DNA of 64,000 nt from Bradyrhizobium sp. ORS 278 (GTDB taxonomy: Bacteria; Pseudomonadota; Alphaproteobacteria; Rhizobiales; Xanthobacteraceae), in assembly GCF_000026145.1 (NCBI RefSeq), contig NC_009445.1, forward strand, positions 248,001 to 312,000, given 5' to 3'. A program made the translations under genes and the position numbers. The notes under the pieces are model-generated. The model did no database searches, had not been told where the DNA came from, and saw only the letters and a list, made by a program, of their open reading frames with translations. This document shows positions 24,589-37,081 of the stretch, one piece after another. The first letter of the stretch is position 1. Each line of letters begins with the position of its first letter.

Positions 24589-26160
24589 ATGACCGTTCAC
24601 ATTCCTCGCCCGAACCTCAAACTGTCCCGCCGCCGCTTCCTGTCGACCGCCGCCGGCGCCGGCATCGCGACGCTGTCGATGCCCTATCTGAGCCGCGCCG
24701 CCGACCGGCCGCAGATCACGCATGGCGTGCAGTCCGGCGATGTCAGCATGGATGGTGGCGTGGTCTGGGCGCGCGCCGACCGGCCGTCGCAGATGCTGGT
24801 CGAGGTCGCCACCACCGAATCGTTCAAGGACGCGCGGAGCTTGCCGCCGATCGCGGCGCTGCCCGAGAGCGACTTCACCGCCAAGATGCTGGTCGACAAT
24901 CTGCCGAGCGGCCAGGACATCTTCTACCGCGTCAAATTCCGCGATCTCGCGCACGTGTCCGTCGAGAGCGAGCCGGTGGTCGGCCGCTTCCGCACCGCGC
25001 CGGGCAACAAGCGCGACGTGTCGTTCGTGTGGGGCGGCGACGTCGCCGGTCAGGGCTGGGGCATCAATCCCGACGATGGCGGCATGTTCACCTTCTCGAC
25101 GATGAAGAAGCATCGTCCGGACTTCTTCCTGCACTCCGGCGACACCATCTACGCCGACGGTCCGATCAAGTCGGAGGTCAAGCTGCCGGACAACAAGGTC
25201 TGGAAGAACCTCACGGTCGAGGAGAAGGCCAAGGTCGCCGAGACGCTCGACGAATTCCGCGCCGCTCACAAGTACAATTTCCTCGACGAGAACGTCCGCG
25301 GCTTCAATGCCGAGGTGCCGATCTTCGTGCAGTGGGACGATCACGAGGTGACCAACAACTGGTCGGCCTCGAAGGACCTGCCGGCGGCCTACAAGGAGCG
25401 CAACATCCAGCTGCTCGCCGCCCGCGCGGCGCGCGCCTTCCACGAGATGTATCCGATGCGCGAGAGCATCGTCGAGCCGGGCCGGGTGTATCGCACCATC
25501 AATTACGGCCCGCATCTCGACGTGTTCGTGCTCGACGAGCGCAGCTATCGCGGCGCCAACGGTGCGAACCTCGAGGACAAATACGGTCCGGCGTCGTACT
25601 TCATCGGGCCGGAGCAGATGCGCTGGCTGAAGCAGGCGCTCTTGAACTCACGCGCGACCTGGAAGGTGATCGCTTCCGACATGCCGCTCAGCCTGATCGT
25701 CTATGATGACGCCGCCAACAGACGCGGCTCCGAGGCGATCGCCCAGGGCGATGGTCCGGCGCGCGGCCGTGAGCTCGAGATCGCCGAGATCCTGCGCTTC
25801 ATCAAGACGGCGCCGATCCAGAACACGGTGTGGCTGACCGCCGACGTGCACTACGCCGCGGCGCATTACTACGATCCGAACAAGGCGCAATTCCAGGACT
25901 TCGAACCGTTCTGGGAGTTCGTCTCCGGCCCGCTGCATGCCGGCACGTTCGGTCCGAACGAGCTCGACAACACGTTCGGCCCCGAGGTGCGCTTCATCAA
26001 GGCGCCCGGCCTCGACAAGCAGAACCTGCCGCCGTCGGCCGGCATGCAGTTCTTCGGTCACGTCAAGATCGACGGCGCCAGCGGCCAGATGACCGTGACC
26101 TTGCGCGATCGCGCCGACGTCGCGCTGTGGTCGACCACGCTCGATCCGAAGCTCGCCTGA
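24589..26160 (+). CDS. PhoD-like alkaline phosphatase, Tat-exported
   Basis: A 523-residue metallophosphoesterase. The N terminus has a twin-arginine signal (SRRRFLSTAAGAG), so the protein is exported folded. The PhoD N-terminal domain (HGVQSGDVSMDGGVVWARAD) precedes metal-site motifs WGGDVAGQG, HSGDTIYADG, VQWDDHEVTNNW and TADVHYAAAHYYDP. PhoD enzymes cleave phosphomonoesters or diesters using Fe/Ca. A GGAGA ribosome-binding site precedes the ATG. No Pho box was identified. Confidence 0.92.
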   Translation: MTVHIPRPNLKLSRRRFLSTAAGAGIATLSMPYLSRAADRPQITHGVQSGDVSMDGGVVWARADRPSQMLVEVATTESFKDARSLPPIAALPESDFTAKMLVDNLPSGQDIFYRVKFRDLAHVSVESEPVVGRFRTAPGNKRDVSFVWGGDVAGQGWGINPDDGGMFTFSTMKKHRPDFFLHSGDTIYADGPIKSEVKLPDNKVWKNLTVEEKAKVAETLDEFRAAHKYNFLDENVRGFNAEVPIFVQWDDHEVTNNWSASKDLPAAYKERNIQLLAARAARAFHEMYPMRESIVEPGRVYRTINYGPHLDVFVLDERSYRGANGANLEDKYGPASYFIGPEQMRWLKQALLNSRATWKVIASDMPLSLIVYDDAANRRGSEAIAQGDGPARGRELEIAEILRFIKTAPIQNTVWLTADVHYAAAHYYDPNKAQFQDFEPFWEFVSGPLHAGTFGPNELDNTFGPEVRFIKAPGLDKQNLPPSAGMQFFGHVKIDGASGQMTVTLRDRADVALWSTTLDPKLA

Positions 26161-26723: not shown

Positions 26724-27485
26724 ATGCTGAGCCAAGGTGTGACGACACTTGCGCGGGAGCGGCCTTACAACAACCTGCTGCGGCGACTGAGCCCGCCCGA
26801 CTACGCGCTGATCGCGCCGTATCTCGTCGAGGATCAGGCTGCGCCGAACGAGCTGTTGTACCGCCCCGGCGACGACGTGCAGATCGTGCATTTCCCCTGC
26901 GGACCGGCGCTGACGTCCTATCTCGTCCCCAATGAGGACGGCCGCGACGTCGAGACGATCCTGGTCGGGCGCGAAGGCGCGGTGGGCGGCATCGTCAGCG
27001 AGGGCTTCCTGCCGGCCTATACCCGCATCGTCGTGAAGTTCGGCGGTCCGTTCGCGCGGTTGCCATTGTCGCGACTCGCCGCTGCCAAGCTGCAGTCGAA
27101 GACGCTGCGCAACGTGTTCGCGCGCTACGCCGATTGCATGCTGGCGCAGATGTTTCAGTCCACCGCCTGCAACGCCATCCATTCGATCGAGCAGCGCACG
27201 GCGAAATGGATCGTCGCGGCGATGGATCGCACCGATGGCGAGCCGATCGTGCCGCTGACGCATGAGCAGCTCGCGACACTGCTCGGCGTTGGCCGCTCCT
27301 ATGTCAGCCGCGTCGTCCAGACCTTCAGGGCGGAAGGCATCCTCGATACCCGCCGCGGCGCCTTCATGGTGCGCGACTTCGCGGCCTTGAAGCAGCGCTC
27401 GTGCCTCTGCAACGAGGCGGTGAAGACCCATTTCGAGGAGGTCCTGCGCGGCGTCTATCCGACTGAGCAGGCCGCTGCGGGCTGA
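26724..27485 (+). CDS. Crp/Fnr-family transcriptional regulator
   Basis: A 253-residue regulator with an N-terminal cyclic-nucleotide-binding fold (LSPPDYALIAPYL...NELLYRPGDDVQIVHFPCG). The C-terminal winged helix has LTHEQLATLLGVGRSYVSRVVQTFRAEGIL. It lacks the N-terminal Fnr cysteine cluster. Two cysteines near the C terminus (RSCLCNEA) are unusual and might respond to redox state, which is speculation. It may control the adjoining Lgt-like/radical SAM cluster, which begins 81 bases downstream on the same strand. Confidence 0.88.
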   Translation: MLSQGVTTLARERPYNNLLRRLSPPDYALIAPYLVEDQAAPNELLYRPGDDVQIVHFPCGPALTSYLVPNEDGRDVETILVGREGAVGGIVSEGFLPAYTRIVVKFGGPFARLPLSRLAAAKLQSKTLRNVFARYADCMLAQMFQSTACNAIHSIEQRTAKWIVAAMDRTDGEPIVPLTHEQLATLLGVGRSYVSRVVQTFRAEGILDTRRGAFMVRDFAALKQRSCLCNEAVKTHFEEVLRGVYPTEQAAAG

Positions 27486-27566: not shown

Positions 27567-28286
27567 ATGGACGGCGCCGCTCTCCACGCGATGTTCGATC
27601 TCGCCGCATGGCTGAGCGCCGGCGCCGCCGGCTGGTGGCTCACACGCATCGCGGGCGTCAGCTTTCCGAAACAGTCCACGGAATGGCCCTATGTCGCCGC
27701 GCTCGTCTTCGGTGCGGGCGTTGGTGCTTATCTCTTCGGCACGCTGAATCTCTGGCTCTCGGGGATGAGCGGCTTGGCGCGCTCCGTCGAGGGCGCACTC
27801 ACCGGCGGCATCGTTGCCGTCGAGCTGTACAAATGGCGACACGGCATCGCGCTGCGCACCGGCGCCCGCTTTGCGCTGCCGCTGGCTGTCGGCGTCGCCG
27901 TCGGCCGCATCGGCTGCTATGCGGCGGGGCTCGACGATTTCACCTATGGCACACCGACGGCGTTGCCCTGGGGGCATGATTTCGGCGACGGCATCTCGCG
28001 TCATCCGGTGCAGCTCTACGAGAGTCTGGCGATGGCCGCCTTTGCCGTCGTCTACGTTGCGGCGGTGCTGAGGCGCAGCGAGCCGGTCATCGCCAACGGC
28101 TTCTATCTCGCGCTGCTCGTCTACGGGCTGCAGCGATTCGTCTGGGAATTTCTGAAGCCCTACGGGCCCGTGGTCGGCCCGCTCACCCTGTTTCATCTGC
28201 TGTCGTTGGCGATCGCGGCCTATGCCGCGGCCATGCTGGCGACGGCGCCGCAACCGAAGGCCCTGCATGAACGCGCCGCTGCGTAA
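27567..28286 (+). CDS. Lgt-like integral membrane protein
   Basis: A 239-residue protein with about seven hydrophobic helices. The blocks GRIGCYAAGLDDFTYGTP and SRHPVQLYES correspond to the GR-GNF-N-E and RHPSQLYE motifs of prolipoprotein diacylglyceryl transferase. The usual glutamate after the GR motif is replaced by Asp-Asp, and the Lgt N-terminal half is less clear, so this may be a paralogue with a changed substrate and not the housekeeping Lgt. Its stop lies 20 bases inside the following radical SAM gene, so the two are co-expressed. A GGAAGGA site is upstream. Confidence 0.75.
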   Translation: MDGAALHAMFDLAAWLSAGAAGWWLTRIAGVSFPKQSTEWPYVAALVFGAGVGAYLFGTLNLWLSGMSGLARSVEGALTGGIVAVELYKWRHGIALRTGARFALPLAVGVAVGRIGCYAAGLDDFTYGTPTALPWGHDFGDGISRHPVQLYESLAMAAFAVVYVAAVLRRSEPVIANGFYLALLVYGLQRFVWEFLKPYGPVVGPLTLFHLLSLAIAAYAAAMLATAPQPKALHERAAA

Positions 28287-29679
28287 GTCACGTCCCTATG
28301 TGTTCTGGGGGCAGACCCAGTCCCTCTGCGAGACCTGCCTCGAGCTGGTGCCGACCAAGATCCAGATCGTCGACAACGAGGTCTGGTACGAGAAGCGCTG
28401 CAGGCAGCACGGCGTGCAGACGACGCTGATCTCCGACGATGCCGCCTATTGGCGGCGCTGCAAATCGTTCATCAAGCCGGGCGACACGCCGCTGAGCTTC
28501 CAGCGCCGCACGGAATATGGCTGTCCCTATGATTGCGGGCTGTGTCCGGATCATGAGCAGCACTCCTGCCTGGCGCTGATCGAGATCACCGATCACTGCA
28601 ACCTGACCTGCCCGGTGTGCTTCGCCGAGTCCTCGCCGCAGCGCGCGCATTTCAGTCCGCTCGCGACCGTCGAGCGGATGCTCGATGCGCTGGTGCAGAG
28701 CGAGGGCGAGCCGGACCTGGTGCAGATCTCCGGCGGCGAGCCGACGCTGCATCCCGAGTTCTTCGACATCCTGGCCGCAGTGCGTGCGCGCCCGATCCGC
28801 CATGTCATGATCAATACCAACGGCCTGCGCATCGCGCGCGAGCCGGACTTCGTCTCCAGACTGGCGGAGACCAAGCGCGGGCTGGAGGTCTATCTGCAGT
28901 TCGATTCCCTGTCGCGCGCCGGCCTCACCAATATTCGCGGCGCCGATTTGCGCCGTATCCGGCAGCAGGCGCTCGAGAATTTGGAGCGCGCGGGCATCTC
29001 GACCACGCTGGTCGCGACCATCAAGCGCGGCGTCAATGACGACGAGATCGGCGACATCGTCCGCCACGCGCTGCAATGGTCCTGCGTGCGCGGCGTGACC
29101 TTGCAGCCGGTGCAGGACGCCGGCCGCAACGCCGATTTCAACAAGGAGACCGATCGCATCATGCTGTCGGAGATCCGCCGCCGCGTGATCGAGACCGGCG
29201 TGTTCGGCGACCAGGACATGATCCCGCTGCCGTGCAATCCCGAGAGCATCTCGATCGGCTATGGCCTGCGCAACGGCACGACCGTGTTGCCGCTGACCTC
29301 GATGGTACCGCAGGAGGAATTGCTGTCGGTGATGCCGAACACGATCAGTCCGGAAAAATATCCGGTACTGCGCGAAAAATTCGTCGAGCTGTTCTCGCTG
29401 TCGTCGGGTCCGCTGAACACCGGCGAGCGCGTCGCCGAATTCCTCTGCTGCCTGCCGTCCGTCCAGGTGCCGGACAATCTCGGCTATGAGCACGTCTTCC
29501 GCGTCACCATCGTGCAGTTTCTCGATCGCTTCAATTTCTGCGTCGGCAACGTCAAGCGCTCCTGCATCCATTTCGTCACCGAGCGCGGCGAGATCATCCC
29601 GTTCGACACCTACAATCTGTTCTACCGCAACGGCGCCATCGACGGCATCCGTGCGCGACTGGCGGAGGGGCAGACATGA
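28267..29679 (+). CDS. radical SAM enzyme of the MJ0619/Tes-like type
   Basis: A 470-residue radical SAM protein. The cluster motif CNLTCPVC (about residues 115-122) is preceded by a cysteine-rich N-terminal domain (LCETCLEL near 20, then GCPYDCGLCPDHEQHSC near 90-106) that could bind metal. This arrangement matches my recollection of archaeal MJ0619-type proteins, one of which was shown to be tetraether lipid synthase. Later blocks are QISGGEPTLHPEFFDI and NTNGLRIA. Further cysteines follow (FLCCLP, FCVGNVKRSC). It overlaps the Lgt-like gene by 20 bases and the next small gene by four. Lipid or lipoprotein modification is an attractive inference, not proven. Confidence 0.85.
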   Translation: MNAPLRKSRPYVFWGQTQSLCETCLELVPTKIQIVDNEVWYEKRCRQHGVQTTLISDDAAYWRRCKSFIKPGDTPLSFQRRTEYGCPYDCGLCPDHEQHSCLALIEITDHCNLTCPVCFAESSPQRAHFSPLATVERMLDALVQSEGEPDLVQISGGEPTLHPEFFDILAAVRARPIRHVMINTNGLRIAREPDFVSRLAETKRGLEVYLQFDSLSRAGLTNIRGADLRRIRQQALENLERAGISTTLVATIKRGVNDDEIGDIVRHALQWSCVRGVTLQPVQDAGRNADFNKETDRIMLSEIRRRVIETGVFGDQDMIPLPCNPESISIGYGLRNGTTVLPLTSMVPQEELLSVMPNTISPEKYPVLREKFVELFSLSSGPLNTGERVAEFLCCLPSVQVPDNLGYEHVFRVTIVQFLDRFNFCVGNVKRSCIHFVTERGEIIPFDTYNLFYRNGAIDGIRARLAEGQT

Positions 29680-29909
29680 GCGATAAGCCTCCCAGCCTGC
29701 CGCCGCGGGCCAAGCGTCATGGCTGCCTGTCGGTACTCATGGTCGTGGGCGGTGTCGTCCTGCTATTGCCCGGGCTATGCGCCGGGCAACTCGCCGTCGG
29801 TGCCCTGATCCGTCTGAGCTGGCCTTGGGAGATCACTCCGCTGATCGCGTTTGGGCTGTTGTGCGGCGCAGCCGGTCTCTGGCTGCTTGTCAAGGTTTCT
29901 CGGGGGTAA
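29676..29909 (+). CDS. small membrane protein with GCL/LLLPGLC motif
   Basis: A 77-residue protein whose start overlaps the radical SAM stop as ATGA, indicating translational coupling. A short hydrophilic, proline-containing N terminus leads to HGCLSVLMVVGGVVLLLPGLC at about residues 15-35, then a second hydrophobic helix. The Gly-Cys-Leu plus Leu-Pro-Gly-x-Cys pattern recurs in other proteins of this cluster (30131-30367 and 30637-31413). No known family recognised. Confidence 0.75.
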   Translation: MSDKPPSLPPRAKRHGCLSVLMVVGGVVLLLPGLCAGQLAVGALIRLSWPWEITPLIAFGLLCGAAGLWLLVKVSRG

Positions 29910-29919
29910 TGGGCAGGGC

Positions 29920-30134
29920 ATGAATTTGATCCCGTCGCCCCCGCGGATTCGGGATCAGTCGGACCAGCGGCGTCGTGTTCGACGCGATACTTTCTCGGCT
30001 CGCGTGATGTCTTTCCCAATCAGATCACGCGCAGGGACCTCGTCGACCCGATCGGACTGCTGTTCATCGGGGCGGCCGTTGCCGGCGTGGTGCTGATCGT
30101 CGCCGCGATCAGGCATGGGCGGAGCCGCTCTTGA
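29920..30134 (+). pseudogene. possible broken small membrane-protein gene
   Basis: An ATG at 29920 opens a frame reading MNLIPSPPRIRDQSDQRRRV. After about 29975 a different frame becomes protein-like (RYFLGSRDVFPNQITRRDLV, then a hydrophobic helix ending in IRHGRSRS) and stops at 30132-30134. That stop overlaps the next gene's TTG as TTGA, the usual coupling arrangement. The second frame has no start codon of its own. A one-base loss between about 29970 and 29985 would explain both parts. This is an inference from composition; no homologue was compared. Confidence 0.4.
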
Positions 30135-30367
30135 CGCTGCCGGAGCAGCCTGCACAGCCCGCACCGTGGGGCTGCCTGAGAGTCATCGTGTCGATCCTGC
30201 TCCTGCTCATCGGGCTGGTGCTGCTCGCGCCGGGGTTGCTATGCTTGGTCAGCGTACGGAATACACCCGGCCTGTTTGCCGTGTTCGCGCTCGGAGCCAT
30301 TGTGCTCGGCTTGTTTCTAGTCCTCGCCGCGATCCGCTTAATGAGGCCGTGCCGCCATGGACGATGA
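30131..30367 (+). CDS. small membrane protein with GCL/LAPG motif
   Basis: A 78-residue protein starting at a TTG that overlaps the end of the preceding frame (TTGA). Two hydrophobic helices. The segment WGCLRVIVSILLLLIGLVLL followed by APGLLC parallels the GCL...LLLPGLC segment of the protein at 29676. It ends 11 bases inside the next gene. Function unknown. Confidence 0.65.
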   Translation: MTLPEQPAQPAPWGCLRVIVSILLLLIGLVLLAPGLLCLVSVRNTPGLFAVFALGAIVLGLFLVLAAIRLMRPCRHGR

Positions 30368-30626
30368 TCCGTTCAACCGCCGCCCGCCGTTGTCGCCGTT
30401 CCTGGAGGAGGTGCGGCGCGCCCGAGCGCCCGCCGGCCTGACGGCGACCATCGGCGCGATCCTCGGCGGCCTGGCCTTGATGTTTCCGTTCGGCTGCGTG
30501 ATGGCCCTGATGCGCCGCGAGTGGAACGAGTTCGGCGGCCTGTTCGGGCCCGGAGCGATCCTGGCCGGCATGGCCGTCGCGGGACTCGTGATGATCGTGC
30601 TGGCGGTCCGCCGCCGTTGGGGCTGA
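30357..30626 (+). CDS. small membrane protein of unknown function
   Basis: An 89-residue protein with a charged N terminus (DDDPFNRRPP) and two hydrophobic helices separated by a short RREWNEFGG loop, ending in RRRWG. It overlaps the previous gene by 11 bases and is followed after 10 bases by the next. The position in the cluster suggests a shared function with the neighbouring small membrane proteins, though it lacks a clear GCL motif. Confidence 0.65.
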   Translation: MDDDPFNRRPPLSPFLEEVRRARAPAGLTATIGAILGGLALMFPFGCVMALMRREWNEFGGLFGPGAILAGMAVAGLVMIVLAVRRRWG

Positions 30627-30636
30627 GTCAGGTCAC

Positions 30637-31413
30637 ATGTCGTCGCCCGAACGTCCTGGCCCGGATGCAGCCCGTGGCACGCCGCCGCTGCCGAAGGAGC
30701 GCTGGAAGGGCCCGCCCGGGGGCATTCCGGACGAGGAGGGGCCGCGCGGCAAAGGCTGTCTCAACCCGCTGATCATGGCCGGCAGCCTGGCGCTGATCGC
30801 GTGGGGGCTGTTTGCTGCGATCTACTTCGCTGTCTTCGTTCGCTGGCACATGGGCGGTTACTTCGGCTTCTTTCTCGAGGGCCTGACCGCGTCGGTCGTC
30901 GGCGCCGTGGTGATGCTGTCGGCCCGTCACCGCTTGCGCGCCCCCACCCTCGGCCGTCCGGAAGCCGGAACGGCGGCCGCGAGCGGCTGTCTGCCGAGCT
31001 TCATGCTGGTTGCCGGCTGCGCGCTGCTGTTGCCGGGCGCCTGTTCGCTGCTGTTCGGACTGAGCGCCATGGGATCGGTCGAGCATATCGGCGATCCCAG
31101 TCTGCTGCTCGCGGTCTTCACCCTGGGTGCTGTCGGCATTGCCTCGCTCTGGTGGGTCAGCGCAAGGCCCGCCGGCGTCGCCGGCCCGCTCATGGCCGCC
31201 GGGATCGTATTTATGATTCCCGGCCTCTTTCTCGCCGTCTACGGCTTCAGCCGGCTGTACTGGATCAACCAGATGCCGTCCGTGCTGCTGCCGATCGGGC
31301 TGCCCGCCGGGGTGATCGGGATCGTCTGCTTCTGGATGGCCTGGCAACGATGGCTGGCGGACGCGTCAGCGGATCCGCTGGCCGTGCCGCCCGGACCCGC
31401 TCCTGATTCCTGA
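30637..31413 (+). CDS. multi-helix membrane protein with repeated GCL motifs
   Basis: A 258-residue protein with a proline-rich hydrophilic N terminus and about six to seven helices. It contains two Gly-Cys-Leu sites at helix starts (KGCLNPLIMAGSLAL and SGCLPSFMLVAGCALLLPGAC). The second closely matches the small protein at 29676, so this looks like a longer, partly duplicated relative. Last member of the cluster, before typA. No known family recognised. Confidence 0.68.
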   Translation: MSSPERPGPDAARGTPPLPKERWKGPPGGIPDEEGPRGKGCLNPLIMAGSLALIAWGLFAAIYFAVFVRWHMGGYFGFFLEGLTASVVGAVVMLSARHRLRAPTLGRPEAGTAAASGCLPSFMLVAGCALLLPGACSLLFGLSAMGSVEHIGDPSLLLAVFTLGAVGIASLWWVSARPAGVAGPLMAAGIVFMIPGLFLAVYGFSRLYWINQMPSVLLPIGLPAGVIGIVCFWMAWQRWLADASADPLAVPPGPAPDS

Positions 31414-31638: not shown

Positions 31639-33465
<1,827 letters not shown>

Positions 33466-36010: not shown

Positions 36011-37081
36011 CTAGGTCGTCAGCTTCACCAAAGCGAGGCTGAAGCTCGCGATGAACAGGAAGGCCGCGAAACCCAGCGCCGCCGGCCGCAGCCCCTTGGC
36101 CTTGAGCTTGGCAAAATCCGTCTCCAGTCCCATCGCGGCGAGCGCCGTCGACAGCAGGAAGGTCGTCGCGGTCACGATGATCGTCTTGGCCTCCGCAGGC
36201 ACCGTGATGACGCTGTTGACGCCGACCAGCGCGACGAAGCCGAGCACGAACCAGGGTAGCGGCGGCTGCGCGCTGCTCTGGCCGCGCCTGCCATGGCACG
36301 CCCGTCGCGTCGCCAGCAGGCCGAGCGTCAGGACAACCGGCGCCAGTAACATCACCCGCGCCAGCTTGGCGATGGTGCCGAACTCGCCGGCCTGCTGCCC
36401 CTGCTGAAAGGCCGCCGCGACCACCTGAGCGATCTCATGGATCGAGGCGCCGCTCCACAGCCCGAAGGCGTGGGCGTCCAGATGCAGCAAGGCGGGGAGC
36501 AGCGGATAGACCACCATCGCAAGCGAGCCGAACACCGTCACGCAGGCGACCGCATAGGCGACGTCCTCATCATGCGCGCGCGTCACCGTGTTGGTCGCGA
36601 TCACCGCGGACGCGCCGCAGATCGAGGTGCCGGCGGCAATCAGTTCGGTGAGCTTGCGGTCGACGCCGAGCAGCCGGCCCATCCACACCGTGAACAGGAA
36701 AGTGCCGGTCAGGCTGAGTGCGATCACGGCGAGCCCGCGCGCGCCGACCTCCACGATGTCAGCCGCCGTCAGTTGCAGGCCTAACAGGATGATCGCGACC
36801 CGCAGCACGCGCCGCATCGCGAAGGTGACGCCCGGTCTGGCCTGCGCCGGCGTGCCGACGACATTGTGCAGCGCCATGCCTGCCACGATCGCCAGGATCA
36901 TCGGGCTGAACATCCCGAGCCCCGGCAGCTGACGCAGCCCGAAGGCGCCCGCTGCGATCGCGGCCGAGAGCGCCAGCCCAGGCAACAGACCGGAGGCACG
37001 GAGCGTTGCCGTCGCGCGAGCATGTCCAGAATGAGCAGCGACGGACGCATCGGCAGTCAGATCGTGCGAGGGGGCAGCCAT
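36011..37081 (-). CDS. YeiH/UPF0324-family putative sulfate exporter
   Basis: A 356-residue inner-membrane protein with about ten helices. Family blocks are [43 protein letters not shown] and [17 protein letters not shown]. Members are proposed to export sulfate or sulfite during sulfonate or thiosulfate metabolism. No sulfur genes are adjacent here. The gene precedes and is coupled to the LysR regulator. Confidence 0.9.

Follow-up and report, generated by a model that had tools for sequence, protein, structure and literature searches.

The closest described relatives of the genes reported here belong to two enzyme families. The first family is represented by MJ0619 (Tes, also GDGT-MAS), an archaeal radical S-adenosylmethionine (SAM) enzyme that couples lipid tails. 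A rubredoxin site (CX2C...CX2H), an N-auxiliary site (CX3CX2C plus a His) and a radical SAM site (CX3CX2C) were defined for it, density in its crystal was interpreted as a bacterial phospholipid, and its M439A variant retains activity (PMC9433317). Bacterial Tes homologues, Proteobacteria included, numbered 456 in 2022 and were suggested to make branched tetraethers (PMC8941075), a role that was described as unconfirmed in a 2025 study (PMC11868695). Work on the related idea of an Mss and Ger pathway concerns Bacillota (PMC13274423). The second family is Lgt, for which Y26, H103, R143, N146, G154 and R239 are the essential residues in E. coli (PMC13251419), and in which the headgroup is surrounded by R143, N146, S198, E202, Y235, R239 and R246 (review PMC8689077).

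We analyzed a window of 64,000 nucleotides from Bradyrhizobium sp. ORS 278 (bases 248001-312000 of a genome consisting of a single contig of 7,456,587 bases), which contains a gene for an Lgt-like protein, a gene for a Tes-like radical SAM protein and a series of genes for small membrane proteins, several with a GxC motif. The Tes-like radical SAM gene and the neighbouring Lgt paralogue were found to be inherited as a pair and, except in Bacillota, usually have a small GxC membrane protein beside them. This gene set is apparently undescribed and is carried by many unrelated bacteria. No description of the pair was found in the titles and abstract openings of open-licence literature, a search that leaves most subscription papers and all preprints outside.

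The first-pass annotation of this DNA had related the radical SAM protein to the MJ0619/Tes family, and both profile and fold comparison bore out full-length homology. As a single sequence the protein matched MJ0619 (7tol) with E 1.4e-61, and a seven-row profile reached E 3.2e-85 across chain residues 24-501. An AlphaFold2 model built from 60 rows had a predicted local distance difference test score of 87.2 and a predicted template modelling score of 0.88, with weak stretches at residues 357-363 and 377-392. In a Foldseek search with this model, 7tol and 7tom ranked first (template modelling score, TM, 0.80 and 0.79 over 490 columns) and were the sole whole-protein matches among the matches listed; the next-ranked was the peptide maturase SkfB over 213 columns, and the longest other alignment listed was to a MoaA chain (399 columns, TM 0.40). 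The motifs CNLTCPVC and GCPYDCGLCPDHEQHSC, both reported for this protein in the first pass, were found in the translation. The rubredoxin-type residues C21, C24, C45 and H48, the N-auxiliary residues C86, C90 and C93 with H96/H99, and the radical SAM ligands C111, C115 and C118 were invariant across all 60 rows, and the C-terminal domain carries C323 and C433 in 60/60 and C394 and C395 in 59/60. The gene is 96% identical to one of Bradyrhizobium aeschynomenes.

These structural comparisons also bear on a role in peptide or protein maturation, in which the radical SAM enzyme would modify the small GxC proteins (for example at their conserved Cys) and the Lgt-like protein would anchor or lipidate them. 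The peptide maturases SkfB and SuiB do appear among the structural neighbours after MJ0619; however, they align over approximately 210 columns, and the whole protein is covered by MJ0619 alone among the matches listed.

We then assessed how consistently the two genes occur together. The radical SAM profile, run against species genomes, found at least 564 relatives, and the best 80, thus selected by similarity to the query, were taken as named loci; they come from Alpha-, Beta- and Gammaproteobacteria, Planctomycetota, Acidobacteria, Melainabacteria and Bacillota. In 77/80 of these, an Lgt-like gene of the same orientation begins no more than about 2.7 kb from the radical SAM gene, and in the three misses (L136, L142 and L156) the radical SAM gene sits at a contig end with its upstream flank out of view. 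Twelve loci viewed in wider context, which may repeat species among the 80, all had an Lgt-like gene near the radical SAM gene, giving 92 loci in total. Linkage was tested with less bias in 249 Pseudomonadota genomes drawn evenly; for each genome, the 6 (radical SAM) or 11 (Lgt-like) top candidates of the first look were scored. Eight genomes, the source genome included, possessed the radical SAM gene at 704 bits or more. For the Lgt-like protein, matches of at least 247 bits came from exactly these eight, and the score that followed was 90 bits. Both genes were adjacent and on the same strand in 8/8, with gaps of 19-840 bases. The eight represent six genera; three (G000, G021 and G057) had been met earlier or had fed the profiles, and five were new. 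An even draw of 289 Alphaproteobacteria, for which scoring was limited to some 5 to 11 initial candidates from each genome at most, contained the radical SAM gene (E < 1e-50) in four genomes including the source genome, and an Lgt-like match adjoined it in each, that of G260 being weak (E 6.8e-7).

Being conserved in 77/80 named loci and in all eight positive genomes of the 249, the pairing is beyond chance. Distance matrices of the two proteins were also correlated (r = 0.93 for 53 pairs, reached by 0/2000 permutations, species relatedness uncorrected). The linkage survives rearrangement, since a Planctomycetota contig (L139) keeps the pair together in reversed order, with the Lgt-like gene downstream. 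The radical SAM gene is nevertheless an optional trait, its orthologue being carried by 13/36 Bradyrhizobium genomes (source genome included). Clustering by BLAST across the 92 loci, which is blind to very short proteins, found no third widely conserved longer gene: the radical SAM cluster covered 92 loci and the Lgt-like cluster 89, followed by clusters of 21, 19 and 19. In the window, the radical SAM gene directly adjoins the Lgt-like gene on one side and the small genes on the other.

The tightness of this linkage is relevant to a further explanation, namely that the radical SAM protein serves a pathway for branched glycerol dialkyl glycerol tetraethers or iso-diabolic lipids as an Mss-like bacterial tail coupler, the Lgt-like protein being incidental. 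This role has been proposed for the Tes homologues that Proteobacteria and Acidobacteria possess (PMC8941075). The fold match to 7tol and 7tom would fit it, but with linkage this close the Lgt-like gene cannot be a bystander. As a proxy for the ether-forming partner we chose the domain PF09989, a presumed part of the PlsA/Ger protein; it had no match in the source genome and a match in one of 24 module genomes overall, leaving 23/24 without this stand-in for Ger. We know of no branched tetraether-type lipids from Bradyrhizobium, Sphingomonas or Caulobacter, and we regard this pathway as an improbable context for the module.

More distant relatives were sought in plasmid records, which held nine, six of them examined. 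In Persicobacter (Bacteroidota), Nonomuraea and M. branderi, whose radical SAM proteins are 47%, 35% and 33% identical, an Lgt-like gene lies just upstream (216, 116 and 103 bits, respectively). In M. vanbaalenii (39%) and in Halorarius and Haloarcula (approximately 30%), a methyltransferase gene lies downstream of the radical SAM gene, and no Lgt-like match occurs within the 11-kb stretch. In a tree of 66 radical SAM rows, rooted at the midpoint only, 60 rows including Persicobacter formed one group (99/97) that is Lgt-linked wherever the flank is visible. The three methyltransferase-linked rows (99/94) fell outside this group, and a second Lgt-linked set (G260, Nonomuraea and M. branderi; 98/91) lay further out on long branches. 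This second set (L092 from G260, L204 and L206) would make a distant Lgt-linked lineage of an alphaproteobacterium and Actinomycetota whose placement in the tree is uncertain. Homologues without an Lgt-like gene, which the first-pass annotation had taken as a sign against its proposed module, were absent from the main group wherever the flank is visible and present as three distant relatives. These three, on mycobacterial and haloarchaeal plasmids (L203, L205 and L207), probably do something other than tetraether synthesis, since haloarchaea are said to make archaeol only (PMC8941075).

Kinship of the smaller partner with Lgt, also proposed at first pass, held on two counts: the PF01790 cut-off was exceeded, and the Lgt fold was recovered. 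Foldseek with the model of this protein had no Lgt among the matches listed, and a second structural look ranked 5azb first. The motifs GRIGCYAAGLDDFTYG and RHPVQLYES were both confirmed in the translation. The NCBIfam Lgt equivalogs were missed by the window copy (best 41.8 bits of a required 334; TIGR00544, 28 of 118.9), and one annotated member carries the name prolipoprotein diacylglyceryl transferase family protein. We compared 61 Lgt-like rows, one from the window and the others from 60 loci chosen among the 89 in which the Lgt-like protein had been matched, to 40 canonical Lgts, both sets being picked by context or score and thus non-random; near-duplicates and L092, L123, L138, L145, L160, L170 and L172 were left out of the 61.

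This comparison revealed a consistent switch of residues. Equivalents of R143, G154, E202, Y235 and R239 were present in all 61 rows, and the R246 position was occupied by Lys in all 61. The Y26 position was of D/E type, with Tyr in 0/58 rows having a letter there, the H103 position was His in 0/61, and the N146 position was Cys in 61/61; among the 40 canonical Lgts, Y26 was found in 40, H103 in 39 and N146 in 40. Three of the six residues essential in E. coli are thus retained (R143, G154 and R239) and three replaced (Y26, H103 and N146), and five of the seven headgroup residues are retained, one of them as Lys. Ordinary lipoprotein lipidation by this protein appears unlikely, because residues that E. 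coli Lgt requires are absent from it. The idea that it substitutes for the normal Lgt was ruled out, as a canonical copy exists elsewhere in all 24 genomes examined. Loss of catalytic-side residues with most headgroup residues kept could also mean that the Lgt-like protein is no enzyme and, by binding phosphatidylglycerol, anchors the radical SAM protein in the membrane or feeds lipid to it, with the small protein as a further subunit; variation of the small-protein sequences between lineages, as can occur in accessory subunits, would agree with this. However, new residues have become invariant in 61/61 rows (C117, K89, D124, T126, G140 and D141), suggesting a specific reaction and not decay, and we consider the feeder role distinctly unlikely.

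The small proteins have two hydrophobic segments, with (P/S/G)G(L/G)C near the end of the first, and their gene lies right after the radical SAM gene, or between or before the pair in several Beta- and Gammaproteobacteria and in one Acidobacteria locus. By a fixed GxC rule, 77 candidates were found in 180 kb around the module. More distant stretches of the same strand (578 kb) held 1 and the opposite strand (935 kb) held 2, which makes 3 in 1513 kb. This approximately 200-fold enrichment is post hoc, as the rule was drafted after examples had been inspected; it misses clear cases (L129 and L145), and a few of the 77 hits (e.g., L147) are unlike the rest. The first-pass annotation had expected the small proteins to be conserved together with the pair. 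Outside Bacillota this was largely the case, as a GxC protein was found in 19/19 Bradyrhizobium-type loci (one labelled Tepidamorphus) and in 41/50 others, and it failed in Bacillota (1/11). Several Bacillota loci carry at the same place a three-segment small protein from which the motif is absent. Small GxC proteins therefore cannot be an obligatory substrate everywhere.

Their features were weighed against the maturation role described above. Two or more GxC proteins, precursor-like, occur in 15/69 non-Bacillota loci (6/19 Bradyrhizobium-type and 9/50 other), in line with such a role. Against it, the Cys is missing in 10/11 Bacillota loci and, where present, sits within a hydrophobic segment. 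We judge maturation to be an unlikely explanation. That the small proteins are ordinary lipoproteins was ruled out by the scarcity of a strict lipobox among the candidates, and inspection by eye found no lipobox in the four small proteins of the window. No Pfam or NCBIfam family scored above cut-off for the small proteins. Sub-threshold Phage_holin_3_6 matches for the first small protein of the window and three others (best 21.8 bits of a required 28.4) recur, so that a holin-like relation is conceivable. On the M. branderi plasmid, two small proteins bear GGLCTG and VGVCTG near their ends.

The pattern GCL...LLLPGxC that had been read as common to two or three of the small proteins of the window stood in part: LLLPGLC occurs in the 77-residue protein and LLLPGAC in the 258-residue protein, while the second copy reads PGLLC and the 89-residue protein has only FPFGC. 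The 258-residue membrane protein has GC-type motifs in two places and no curated family above cut-off. About 760 bases of its gene (30637-31413) align with nothing at the corresponding position in L094, a close relative, and for this reason the small-gene set seems to change quickly. It was also noted that L094 has a small gene at the place matching the open stretch 29910-30134 of the window.

Taken together, we propose that the locus encodes a conserved bacterial envelope-lipid module that modifies lipids or lipoproteins, to which we assign a probability of roughly 0.4. In a first step the Lgt-like protein would bind phosphatidylglycerol, the best-supported part of the proposal given that most of the reported headgroup residues are retained. 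The diacylglyceryl group would then go to a target that is not a typical lipobox cysteine: the replacement of Y26, H103 and N146, the Cys at N146 and the new invariant residues point to another acceptor or another reaction. The acceptor might be the cysteine in the GxC motif of the small protein, Cys117 of the Lgt-like protein itself, or a small molecule. In a second step the radical SAM enzyme, with SAM and its auxiliary clusters, might abstract hydrogen from the acyl tails of the lipid or lipid-protein and form a C-C or C-S bond, yielding cross-linked (perhaps membrane-spanning) or otherwise tail-modified lipids. Such chemistry on a phosphatidylglycerol-derived lipid or lipid-protein is suggested by the full-length relative, which couples tails and can hold bacterial phospholipids. 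In a third step the small protein may, outside Bacillota, serve as substrate or membrane partner. The second and third steps are weaker than the first. A more specific version, in which the rewired Lgt attaches a diacylglyceryl group to the non-lipobox GxC cysteine of a small membrane hairpin or to its own Cys117 and the radical SAM enzyme welds acyl tails together or to the protein, seems improbable.

Several observations weigh against the envelope-lipid reading. E. coli Lgt function is abolished by N146A and by H103A (PMC13251419), and N146 and S198, both members of the headgroup network, are replaced in the Lgt-like protein; neither phosphatidylglycerol binding nor transfer is thus assured, and the loss of these two network residues lowers confidence in this reading. 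The divergent copy at L092 has Lys at R143 and lacks RHP. Lgt acts from the periplasmic side and the radical SAM protein should be cytoplasmic, so that a direct hand-over would need a lipid flip or contact in mid-membrane. The radical SAM protein did not pass the NCBIfam cut-off for Tes (NF045702; 261.4 bits of a required 450), nor that for the radical SAM (seleno)protein family TrsS, its best-scoring model (NF045646; 299 of 490). Met439 of MJ0619 aligns with Val and Cys470 with Asp, as read from printed alignments with an inferred 20-residue offset applied; because C323, C394, C395 and C433 are conserved and these equivalents are absent, a C-terminal cluster is likely, with a ligand set unlike that of MJ0619. 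The near absence of GxC proteins from Bacillota loci and the occurrence of a strict lipobox ([LVI][ASTVI][GAS]C) in 1/77 candidates also count here, and no lipid, phenotype or biochemical data on any module member were found in the literature covered.

The coordinates and gene overlaps given at first pass were reproduced. The radical SAM gene starts with ATG at 28267, overlapping the Lgt-like gene by 20 nucleotides (28267-28286), and its stop overlaps the start of the next small gene as ATGA at 29676. At 30131, the TTG start of a small gene overlaps the stop of the preceding open stretch as TTGA, and the small genes 30131-30367 and 30357-30626 overlap by 11 nucleotides. The Crp/Fnr gene directly upstream had been suggested as a regulator of the module. 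Such a gene is present in 24/92 loci, all of Bradyrhizobium type, which rules out Crp/Fnr control as a general feature; it is probably a lineage-specific neighbour outside the core module. The stretch preceding the Lgt-like gene contains an inverted repeat; by eye, L094 has a similar one and most of the other upstream stretches compared do not, and the feature was dropped.

Table 1. Features of the module and its upstream neighbour, in window coordinates (aa, amino acids).
Feature	Coordinates	Strand	Basis or remark
Crp/Fnr-type regulator (HTH_Crp_2)	26724..27485	+	PF13545, 53.9 bits (cut-off 27); neighbour in 24/92 loci
Lgt-like seven-transmembrane protein, 239 aa	27567..28286	+	Equivalents of Y26/H103/N146 are D11, E75, C117
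Tes/MJ0619-like radical SAM protein, 470 aa	28267..29679	+	Sequence, profile and fold matches to 7tol
Metal sites of the radical SAM protein	28267..29679	+	Rubredoxin-type, N-auxiliary, radical SAM, probable C-auxiliary
Two-helix small membrane protein, HGCL...LLLPGLC, 77 aa	29676..29909	+	Sequence; gene kind enriched near module
Open stretch, like a further small membrane protein reduced to its C-terminal half (GxC half missing)	29910..30134	+	Translation; comparison with L094
Small membrane protein, WGCL...LLAPGLLC, 78 aa, TTG start	30131..30367	+	Sequence; L094 relative, E 9e-29
Small membrane protein with FPFGC, 89 aa	30357..30626	+	Sequence; L094 relative, E 3e-51
Membrane protein, several hydrophobic segments, RGKGCL... 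and SGCLP...LLLPGAC, 258 aa	30637..31413	+	Sequence

Elsewhere in the window, the small genes are followed by a translation factor gene starting at 31639, which we take to be typA/BipA. The frame at 24589-26160 has a twin-arginine-type leader and features of what is presumably a PhoD-like phosphatase. On the opposite strand, 36011-37081 encodes a membrane protein that we presume to resemble the YeiH-type putative exporters, and a frame on the same strand overlapping it is, we assume, of LysR type.

For one large group of bacterial Tes homologues, these results identify a constant partner, itself related to an enzyme that acts on phosphatidylglycerol, which makes the role of the group directly testable in genetically tractable bacteria. 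They also delimit, by a clear-cut exchange of residues, a subfamily of Lgt whose members probably have another function than their name implies, and they define a group of small membrane proteins without a curated name. If the product were a cross-linked lipid or proteolipid, radical tail chemistry would reach everyday bacteria. Were the GxC or Cys117 proteolipid real, it would staple the membranes of common bacteria from soil and water and represent a new class of proteolipid, spread across Proteobacteria, Planctomycetota, Acidobacteriota, Bacteroidota, Actinomycetota and Melainabacteria.

Compared to the known systems, the radical SAM protein shares with Tes/GDGT-MAS (MJ0619) its full-length homology, its fold and the rubredoxin, N-auxiliary and radical SAM sites, and it differs in being bacterial, linked to an Lgt paralogue, under the Tes cut-off and equipped with other C-terminal ligands. 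TrsS is the model that scores best and yet is not reached. TrsS genes sit beside the methyltransferase gene TrsM, and this is the arrangement of L203, L205 and L207, which have no Lgt match nearby and are likewise under the TrsS cut-off of 490 (335-353 bits). With Lgt (PF01790, 5azb) the Lgt-like protein shares the family score, R143, G154, E202, Y235, R239 and the fold, whereas Y26 has become D/E, H103 is lost, N146 is Cys, and a canonical Lgt coexists with it. The second mycobacterial Lgt homologue, MSMEG_5408, is reported to share the N146C change and has Y26H in place of D/E (PMC13251419). With the Mss/Ger pathway, compared by description, the module shares the idea of tail coupling, Mss itself having been likened to Tes (PMC13274423).

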